Shown piece by piece: positions 2,769 to 4,800 of a stretch of DNA of 25,167 nucleotides (within the stretch, counting starts at the first letter, position 1; each line of letters starts with the position of its first letter). The DNA comes from a virus, in the IMG/VR virus record IMGVR_UViG_3300031972_001163, positions 1-25,167 of that record. The stretch is one strand, 5' to 3'. The position numbers and the translations under genes were made by a program. The notes beneath the pieces were generated by a model. It was not told the origin of the DNA. It saw nothing but the letters and a program-made list of their open reading frames with translations, and made no database searches.

Positions 2769-3462
2769 ATTAATAGATGCAATGGGATATGTGTCAGAGT
2801 TAAACAAAACTCATGGCATTAAACAAAGGGGCGGCAAAATGTACACGCAAGTCGTGCATCGCATGGAAGCGTTCCGAACTGTGTTTGGACTACAGCTTGG
2901 AGTTGATACTCAGATTCTAGTTGACGATGGTAATCGCGTAGTTGTAAAGGCTATCATTACAAACGCAGAAGGCATGACTGTAGGCTCTGGAATGGCTGAA
3001 GAAATACGAGGGCAAGGTCATGTTAATACAACATCTGCTTTAGAGAACTGTGAGACATCAGCAGTAGGCAGAGCCTTGGCTTCTATCGGATTGTCAGGCG
3101 GTGAGTATGCATCAGCTAATGAGATGGATGCAGTACCACGCAAGGCAGAGGCATTAAAAGCGCAACCTTCTGAGGATACAGCTAAGATTATTACTAAGGT
3201 GAAGGAAGTATTCCCTGAAGCTGAAGTAAAGATTGAACCAAAAGCAGAAGAGAAGAAGGAAGAAAAAGGTACGGATGAAGACCGAGATAAAAGTCTTTAT
3301 GTACAAACCAAGATTAGATTAGATAAGGTGGGCGGTTTGTCTGGCGTTCATTCTTTGTTTAATGAAATGAAACCTAAGATAAAAGAAATACAGACTAGAA
3401 GCCCTGAACGCGCACAACATTTTGAAAAAATGTTCAGGGATTGTGAAGCCAAGTTTTTATAG
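2758..3462 (+). CDS. erf: ERF-family single-strand annealing protein
   Basis: The 234-residue protein carries the ERF core at roughly residues 25-125. It includes TSALENCETSAVGRALASIG and the strongly typical GLSGGEYASANEM motif. ERF proteins (P22 Erf type) coat single-stranded DNA and anneal complementary strands in phage recombination and genome circularisation. Residues 126-180 are a proline/lysine/glutamate-rich linker, and the last 50 residues form a separate small helical tail. The gene starts 11 bases before the end of the HTH/coiled-coil gene. With the upstream exonuclease and the downstream SSB-tailed protein it makes a complete strand-annealing recombination set. Confidence 0.92.
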   Translation: MADKLIDAMGYVSELNKTHGIKQRGGKMYTQVVHRMEAFRTVFGLQLGVDTQILVDDGNRVVVKAIITNAEGMTVGSGMAEEIRGQGHVNTTSALENCETSAVGRALASIGLSGGEYASANEMDAVPRKAEALKAQPSEDTAKIITKVKEVFPEAEVKIEPKAEEKKEEKGTDEDRDKSLYVQTKIRLDKVGGLSGVHSLFNEMKPKIKEIQTRSPERAQHFEKMFRDCEAKFL

Positions 3463-3473
3463 GAGATTTTTAA

Positions 3474-3764
3474 ATGGCTACTAATGATTACAAAAAGATT
3501 GCAACAATGAAACTTTGGAAAAACGATGCAGGTAAAGCCACGCATGGTAATGGCAGTTGGCAACCTTGGGTTGATGGTTCTAACACAGACATCACCCTGA
3601 GAGGAGACCAGAAATATTCTGTTCGTTTATTTGATAATGAGGATGATACTGTAACCATACAAATCTCACAGAAAATGGATGCTTCCGTTAGTGTAGATAA
3701 GGGCTTGCGTAAAGTTGAGTCCAGTATTAGCCTTAATGATACATTAGATGATATTCCTTTTTAA
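3474..3764 (+). CDS. Small SSB-like protein with DDIPF C-terminal tail
   Basis: The 96-residue protein begins MATNDYKKIATMKLWKND and looks beta-rich up to about residue 75 (SVRLFDN, TVTIQISQK). It ends in DTLDDIPF. An acidic tail finishing in DDIPF is the protein-docking tip of bacterial SSB, which recruits recombination and replication proteins. The body is shorter than typical SSB and I cannot assign an OB fold with certainty. AGGAG lies nine bases upstream of the ATG. Position directly after the ERF gene supports a single-stranded-DNA-binding role. The operon seems to end here, at the structured element that overlaps the stop codon. Confidence 0.75.
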   Translation: MATNDYKKIATMKLWKNDAGKATHGNGSWQPWVDGSNTDITLRGDQKYSVRLFDNEDDTVTIQISQKMDASVSVDKGLRKVESSISLNDTLDDIPF

Positions 3765-3838
3765 GTAGGCTACTCCCTCCAGCGCTGCCTAGGGGTGCAG
3801 CTGATGCCTTGATGTGTGTGATGCCGAGCCTACTTTTT
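3763..3838 (+). ncRNA. Candidate structured RNA / complex terminator with pseudoknot
   Basis: The element is closed by a 9-bp stem (AAGTAGGCT 3763-3771 with AGCCTACTT 3827-3835) and ends in a TTTTT tract at 3834-3838. Inside, GCTGC (3784-3788) pairs with GCAGC (3797-3801) around an 8-base loop. The loop's AGGGG (3791-3795) can pair with TCCCT (3774-3778), giving an H-type pseudoknot. GATGCC occurs twice, at 3803-3808 and 3820-3825. A simple terminator would not need a 55-base structured loop. The strand is set by the U-tract. I do not match it to any known RNA family. It may be a small RNA, a ligand-sensing or regulated terminator between the two rightward gene groups, or just an elaborate terminator. 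Confidence 0.55.
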
Positions 3839-3912
3839 GTGTTGAACTTTTCCTTTCATACTACACAAAATTCGTTTACGGTTAATCAAGGCAACCCCTG
3901 ACTTTAACAACT
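3839..3912 (+). other. Short non-coding spacer before the HNH gene
   Basis: No ORF or hairpin stands out. A TTGAAC at 3842-3847 has no well-placed -10 partner, so I cannot assign a promoter with confidence. Either transcription passes the structured element, or an unrecognised promoter lies here. Confidence 0.4.
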
Positions 3913-4317
3913 GTGAGTAACCAAGTGCGTAAACATGGTGAAAAAAGAGAAGACGGTAAAGTCTATTGGGGAAGAAAAACCAATGGAAGCGAAGAGTGGA
4001 CTACGCACGAAAAGTTTTTAGACAGGAAGTTAAAGTCAAAACAAAGAGTCACCAAGTTAAGGAAGGCTCGTAAAAGATGGTTAAACATTTACAAAGTAGC
4101 AAAGGGTTGTGAGATATGTGGGTACAATGCCCACCCAAGTGGACTAGAGTTTGACCATTTACCGCAATATCAGAAGTGGAAAGACATCTCTTCTATAGTT
4201 GACTACAGTCTTAAAAATTTAATTAATGAAATTAGAAAGTGCAGGGTGCTTTGCGCCATATGCCATAGGATATTTACGGATGAACAAAGAAATAAAAAAA
4301 ACACTGATGGAGTTTAA
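3913..4317 (+). CDS. HNH endonuclease-like protein
   Basis: The 134-residue protein has a basic N-terminal half and a C-terminal HNH fold. C66-x2-C69 (CEIC) is followed by LEFDHL with D81-H82, and then by C114-x2-C117-H118 in RVLCAICHR. The paired cysteines would bind structural zinc and the DH/CHR residues form the beta-beta-alpha-metal site. Such genes in phages are free-standing homing endonucleases or DNA-processing enzymes. The N-terminal segment (REDGKVYWGRK) may bind DNA. The start is GTG, with no good Shine-Dalgarno, directly after a non-coding element, so expression may be weak. An intron-less insertion between two gene groups would suit a homing enzyme, but that is inference. Confidence 0.75.
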   Translation: MSNQVRKHGEKREDGKVYWGRKTNGSEEWTTHEKFLDRKLKSKQRVTKLRKARKRWLNIYKVAKGCEICGYNAHPSGLEFDHLPQYQKWKDISSIVDYSLKNLINEIRKCRVLCAICHRIFTDEQRNKKNTDGV

Positions 4318-4498
4318 CGAACTGTATGAAAAGAAACCGCCATCAAAAACACAGGCAGAAAGAATATGGAACAATGGACTTAATCTTTTAGCTTGGAAGC
4401 TGGTGATGCTAACTAAACCTGTTGCATCAAAGAAAGACAAAGAAATAAAGATACACCAAAAACCTTACTCAGTAACTTATACATTTGGAGAAAGCTGA
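4280..4498 (+). CDS. Small unknown protein
   Basis: This is a 72-residue, lysine-rich, mainly helical protein (MNKEIKKTLMEFNELYEKKP) with no motif I recognise. The in-frame ORF extends upstream, but that part overlaps the HNH gene. The ATG at 4280 has AGGA about nine bases upstream and overlaps the HNH coding end by 38 bases. An ATG at 4307 is the alternative. The stop overlaps the next start as TGATG, which supports the gene being real. Confidence 0.62.
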   Translation: MNKEIKKTLMEFNELYEKKPPSKTQAERIWNNGLNLLAWKLVMLTKPVASKKDKEIKIHQKPYSVTYTFGES

Positions 4499-4800
4499 TG
4501 AACAAAGAACAACTATTAACAGCCGCACTTGACGCTGTAACTGTACGAGGCTCTGCCTATGGCGATGCTTATACTAATCACAAAAGAATAGCAGACTTCT
4601 GGTCTCTCATATTAGAAACAGAGGTACGTCCTGACCAGGTAGCACCTATGATGATAGGTGTAAAACTAGCCAGGCTAATAGAAACACCTGACCATCAAGA
4701 CAGCTACGTAGATGTAGCAGGGTATGCAGCAACAGGCTCACAAGTTAAGGACGATGAGAGACTAATAGAAGTGGGTAACTCAAGAACATTAGATGTTTAA
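4498..4800 (+). CDS. DUF6378-like phage protein
   Basis: The 100-residue protein has RGSAYGDAYTNHKRIADFW (residues about 17-35), VAPMMIGVKLARL and TPDHQDSYVDVAGYAA. This is the pattern of small phage proteins now grouped as DUF6378. The alternating conserved E/H/D and aromatic residues resemble all-alpha nucleotide-handling proteins such as MazG-like enzymes, but no function is established that I know of. GGAGAAAG precedes the TGATG junction, giving strong coupling with the upstream gene. Family name is from memory of the motif pattern. Confidence 0.75.
   Translation: MNKEQLLTAALDAVTVRGSAYGDAYTNHKRIADFWSLILETEVRPDQVAPMMIGVKLARLIETPDHQDSYVDVAGYAATGSQVKDDERLIEVGNSRTLDV

Follow-up and report, generated by a model that had tools for sequence, protein, structure and literature searches.

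In leaders of the preQ1-II, SAM-II and SAM/SAH types, the loop of a hairpin base-pairs with a segment further 3', close to the ribosome-binding site. The operator of T4 gene 32 is a pseudoknot of about 28 nt that precedes gene 32, and is located 5' of the Shine-Dalgarno (SD) sequence in the replication module, beside SSB-type and homing-type endonuclease genes (PMC535899). A conserved RNA with likenesses to both is encoded in the window, which comprises 25,167 nucleotides (positions 1 to 25,167) of the IMG/VR virus record IMGVR_UViG_3300031972_001163, from an uncultured ocean phage. It spans about 135 bases on the + strand (3763-3899), between an SSB-like gene (3474-3764, + strand) and an HNH endonuclease gene (3925-4317, + strand), and represents a new RNA family within a general type that is already known, the pseudoknotted phage leader RNA. 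Its hairpin P2 and helix A have the geometry of the classical H-type pseudoknot, with a short joiner (CC; 2-3 nt) and no nucleotides between the stems, and as in the preQ1-II, SAM-II and SAM/SAH leaders it is the hairpin loop that can pair downstream. Unlike in those leaders, helix A itself does not include the SD, P1 forms a second crossing helix, a large insert (helices B, P4, C and D) is present, and no Rfam family is matched. The element shares its genomic setting and its position 5' of an SD with the T4 operator, but is far longer, and it follows the SSB-like gene and precedes a different one. Among the 4227 families of Rfam 15, none matches the window at the gathering score, with only a chance 19-nt match to U6atac (E 2.6), and none matches seven homologous loci at E <= 1; this agrees with the preliminary description of the locus, where no match had been seen to the riboswitch and ribozyme cores compared (hammerhead, twister, pistol, fluoride). 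A tRNA or tmRNA was rejected, with no match in ARAGORN, as was a HEARO/IscB-type guide RNA, which was considered on account of the HNH gene: no Rfam match was found, the HNH protein has only some 130 aa and around half of the clade lacks it.

The preliminary description placed the complete element at 3763-3838. The features which it listed can be read from the sequence, including a 9-bp stem AAGTAGGCT (3763-3771)/AGCCTACTT (3827-3835), the first bases of which overlap the SSB stop codon TAA (3762-3764), an inner 5-bp hairpin GCTGC (3784-3788)/GCAGC (3797-3801) with AGGGG within its 8-nt loop, a TCCCT (3774-3778) complementary to this AGGGG, a repeated GATGCC (3803-3808 and 3820-3825) and a TTTTT (3834-3838). 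The boundaries were, however, misplaced, as 3763-3838 represents only the 5' half of an RNA which extends to ~3899, is twice the size first noticed and ends just before the ribosome-binding site of the next gene. Half of the helices pair 3763-3838 with sequence beyond it. As a unit of 76 nt this piece is unremarkable, since it folds no better than shuffled sequence (MFE z-score +0.19; 112/200 shuffles fold at least as well), with a z-score of -1.8 (9/200 shuffles as good) for the whole of 3763-3910; comparison with homologues shows this region to be clearly non-random.

Homologues were sought using the SSB-like protein, the ERF-like protein and two DNA patterns. Approximately twenty-five independent IMG/VR records containing the region were obtained, and eighteen distinct sequences were aligned (alignment A2) and analysed with RNAalifold, pair counts and a covariance model (R1). 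The homologues belong without exception to a single clade of uncultured HTVC010P-like phages, and each of the eighteen sequences is located between the same SSB-like gene and either an HNH or a DUF6378 gene. Every SSB-homologue record in which the region has been sequenced contains the element, the exceptions being two contigs that end inside or at the element and one that ends before it. Similarly, a search with DUF6378 identified twenty-five clade members, 24/25 with the element and one on a contig that begins within the HNH gene, as well as two distant DUF6378 loci without the element. A single copy is present per record in the eight records that were searched whole. With the covariance model, no convincing match was found in three isolate HTVC010P-type pelagiphages and part of HTVC028P, the one match among these sequences (E 0.08) skipping most of the model, and none in other phages with an ERF gene. 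A DNA search of isolate phages with the region returned only short matches in a downstream gene, and no SSB homologues were found in the GTDB genomes. On the sequences available, the RNA family appears to occur so far only in a single uncultured clade.

Seven helices (P1, P2, P4, A, B, C and D) are supported by the alignment on the + strand RNA. P1, the closing stem of the preliminary description, pairs AGUAGGC (3764-3770; GGUAGGC in relatives) with GCCUACU (3828-3834) in 100 % of the eighteen sequences, with six of the seven pairs invariant and one compensatory event (G-C to A-U). It is followed by a pyrimidine joiner, J1/2 (ACUCCCUCCA, 3772-3781; YCCUCCYA in relatives), a potential pairing partner of either the P2 loop (5-6 bp) or the SD (UACUC/GAGUA in the window). 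Hairpin P2 (GCUGC/GCAGC with loop CUAGGGGU, 3784-3801) incorporates a C-G to U-A double change, and its G-U/U-G wobbles become G-C/U-A elsewhere in the alignment. Helix A is formed by AGGGGU within the P2 loop (3791-3796) and the complementary, nearly invariant ACCCCU (3894-3899). The long-range helix B (8 bp; GCCUUGAU, 3806-3813, with AUCAAGGC, 3885-3892) is likewise 100 % paired in the eighteen sequences and has four pairs with double changes, the window version GCCUUGAU/AUCAAGGC corresponding to GUCUUAAU/AUUAAGAC in most relatives and to GUUCUGAU/AUCAGAGC in locus L092. Helix C pairs GCCG (3823-3826) with CGGU (3879-3882), and occurs in versions GCC/GGU and, among relatives, GCUAU/AUAGU, ACUG/CGGU and GCCA/UGGC. 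The two GATGCC copies supply GCC to helices B and C, respectively. Hairpin P4 (CAGU/ACUG, CAAG/CUUG or CAA/UUG) has been lost in the window clade. Helix D (8 bp) pairs UUUUGUGU (3835-3842), which holds most of the TTTTT, with ACACAAAA (3863-3870), while AGCGCU/AGCGCU or UAGCG/CGCUA are found in the same place in relatives.

Conservation of the RNA and of the family fold is well supported by comparison of these sequences. Across the alignment 97.7 % of cells are paired, compared to 36-46 % with slid partners, eleven pairs have changed on both sides, and 0/500 shuffles match the alignment. When substitutions were moved among helix columns on the tree, as a phylogeny-aware null, the number of broken pairs was always higher than that observed (p about 0.0005 for helices P1, P2, A, B and C combined). 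Individually, the helices give p values of 0.001 (B), 0.01 (C), 0.016 (P2), 0.17 (P1, with two substitutions) and 1.0 (A, with one substitution). In an all-pairs R-scape-like scan the top two pairs, one in P2 and one in C, have E values of 0.9 and 1.8 at this low diversity, and single pairs are thus not significant. G-U/U-G pairs occur in P2, B and D, some at covarying positions, which identifies the + strand RNA as the selected molecule. The structured, pseudoknotted phage RNA that was first suspected is supported as conserved and genuine, and it is the interior which is conserved and the U-tract which is not, the reverse of an outer stem and U-tract surrounding a freely varying interior. Compensatory change, which had been proposed as a check on both stems and on a loop pseudoknot between TCCCT and AGGGG, is evident in P2 and limited to the one event in P1. 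Pairing of the loop with the upstream tract (5-6 bp) is possible in 18/18 sequences, but the exact TCCCT/AGGGG pairing is complete only in the window clade (58/83 cells across the alignment).

The G residues of the P2 loop could thus be contested, with the upstream CCUCC competing with helix A. The loop can form at least 6 bp with the downstream ACCCCU in 16/18 sequences and 5 bp in 2/18, and in all homologues this complementary strand lies 5' of the SD, as in an H-type leader. Since P1 crosses B and C, it would either alternate with them or form a second pseudoknot, and the nested fold with P1 and that with B and C lie within about 3 kcal/mol of each other in most sequences. These comparisons suggest, but do not prove, pseudoknot A, and P1 may coexist with B and C. 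The SD-like GAGUA of the next gene (3915-3919, + strand), which aligns with GAGGU of relatives, is mostly paired in the ensemble predicted for the window (unpaired about 0.14), partly through UACUC/GAGUA. A role for CCUCC as a covarying anti-SD was rejected, as the correlation between J1/2 and the SD across the family is not significant (p 0.125); the SD varies to GAGU or GAGA while CCUCC stays constant.

The gene 3' of the element is HNH in some records and DUF6378 in others. In the window, the HNH gene (PHROG HNH matches up to 1.1e-22 for the ORF 3913-4317) more likely starts at the GTG at 3925 than at 3913 according to alignment with relatives, and is followed by a DUF6378 gene (4498-4800, + strand; PF19905, 1.1e-25), which lies directly 3' of the leader in members without HNH. 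The leaders of L009 and L086 are nearly identical although the next gene differs. As either gene can follow nearly the same leader, the latter does not form part of the HNH gene, which is itself probably mobile, given its scattered distribution on the tree. In some records the small HNH gene is situated exactly between the leader and DUF6378 (window 3925-4317; L158:1-270), and in L158 its 3' end overlaps the start of DUF6378. Other phages that share this gene order have neither a gap nor an RNA, and the SSB stop codon overlaps the start of DUF6378.

P1 begins 0-7 nt after the SSB stop codon, and the distance from the end of helix A to the start codon, of HNH or DUF6378, is 18-20 nt in relatives and about 26 nt in the window. 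From this position and spacing, the interchangeable downstream genes and the two folds of near-equal energy, we infer that the element probably controls translation of the next gene, and tentatively favour a translational leader, possibly a switch, that acts in cis on the gene 3' of the SSB-like one. As part of the early/recombination transcript, the element would act in cis as a 5' leader, with helix A ending at the upstream edge of the translation-initiation region of the next gene, where it would set or switch initiation. In one predicted state, P1 and P2 would form and CCUCC would hold the loop G's, leaving the ribosome site free, while in the other, B, C and A would form and the CCUCC thus freed could mask that site. 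The trigger may be SSB translation through its stop codon, or a bound ligand or protein. Each of these regulatory steps, the effector, the switching itself, and the alternation of P1 with B and C or their joining in a double pseudoknot, is a proposal drawn from the predicted folds.

The element could instead be a separate processed small RNA or an RNA scaffold within the operon, for which its place before a start codon would be incidental. The complex fold with conserved unpaired blocks, and conservation regardless of which gene comes next, are consistent with such an RNA, but the 3' boundary keeps its constant distance to the next start codon in relatives, with the SD following directly, and no conserved promoter-like site or terminator bounds the element, making this alternative unlikely. 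No promoter-like site was found on the + strand within 3400-4200, and the two phage operons between which the element was initially placed are thus unsupported, a single co-directional operon being equally likely. Elsewhere in the window a very strong hairpin (GGGGGGGGGATTTTTATAAAGTTTTTCCCCC, 1334-1364) separates divergent gene groups and is closely followed by a promoter-like site (1390-1418).

A translational operator of the T4 gene 32 type, where the SSB-like protein would bind the pseudoknot and leader and repress the genes downstream, was considered given the pseudoknot beside an AU-rich leader with an SD, the adjoining SSB-like gene and the adjoining homing-type endonuclease gene, comparable to segG in T4 (PMC535899). 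It is distinctly unlikely, as at every locus the RNA lies 3' and not 5' of the SSB-like gene, so that there would be no autoregulation, and the gene product is only putatively an SSB. Its assignment derives from the C-terminal IPF tip (...DDIPF) only, which is common to relatives with which the protein shares 43 % identity. No family in Pfam, PHROG or NCBIfam names the product of 3474-3764 as an SSB, and its AF2 model is of low confidence (pLDDT 58).

Transcription termination or attenuation after the SSB gene, as first proposed, is suggested in the window clade by the strong 9-bp stem followed by UUUUU, and in most relatives by helix D followed by UUUUGUAU. The family does not keep a stem with a U-tract, however, as this arrangement follows P1 only in the window clade and D only in the others, and the terminator reading consequently does not hold for the family. 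In the window clade the TTTTT forms part of helix D, and relatives lack it, with 16/18 sequences having GAGCGC, AAGCGC or TAGCG after P1. Furthermore, a scan for terminators detects none in this region of either the window or L018, and the long-range helices B and C require transcription to continue through, such that termination as a conserved function is quite improbable. A DNA-level element (a replication origin, primosome hairpin or recombination site) is very improbable, as the covarying positions include + strand G-U pairs, which the other DNA strand would carry as A-C mismatches, even though the element lies in a replication/recombination module and related pelagiphages lack a DNA polymerase and depend on the host (PMC10504331).

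The leader reading may be compared with the HTVC010P-type isolates, which hold a different RNA in the same syntenic slot. Between their SSB-like gene and the next gene there is a covarying stem of 12-14 bp whose long, pyrimidine-rich loop holds U6-8, following the 5' strand, and UUCCCUUUC (L150:6794-6885, L149:26321-26423, L151:28190-28315 on the - strand, L152:413-506, L153:389-503 and L154:3608-3725), and it also occurs before genes other than DUF6378, as in HTVC035P. Like the element, this stem covaries on the + strand and ends just before the start codon; unlike the element, it is a single long-loop stem without a match to R1. A structured RNA in the gap between the SSB-like and next genes is therefore a recurrent feature. 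In L149 (Lederberg; 26321-26423) the loop sequence CCUUUCUUU has 9 nt of complementarity to AAAGAAAGG, located at the SD of the next gene, which suggests direct masking of the SD in this phage. The loop of helix D (3843-3862 in the window) contains UUUUCCUUUC, which resembles the pyrimidine motif of the pelagiphage stem loops and may, judging from this resemblance, represent a shared protein- or RNA-binding motif. The paper describing the pelagiphage Skadi reports that no terminators or ribonucleotide switches were found (PMC10504331).

It is conceivable, albeit doubtful, that the element represents a new class of phage riboregulator with a double pseudoknot, whose G-rich loop would be contested by the upstream CCUCC and the downstream ACCCCU and would couple SSB termination, or a ligand, to the next gene, with analogous but structurally different elements in the same slot across HTVC010P-type phages. 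No description of the element or of the pelagiphage stem was found in the open-licence literature. To our knowledge, few structured RNAs have been catalogued from marine podoviruses, and the element offers one that is supported by comparison, has a defined fold in which some helices are long-range or pseudoknotted, and keeps a constant gene context. If it is a regulator of translation, it would show how compact phages uncouple genes that in their relatives are read across an overlap of stop and start codons.
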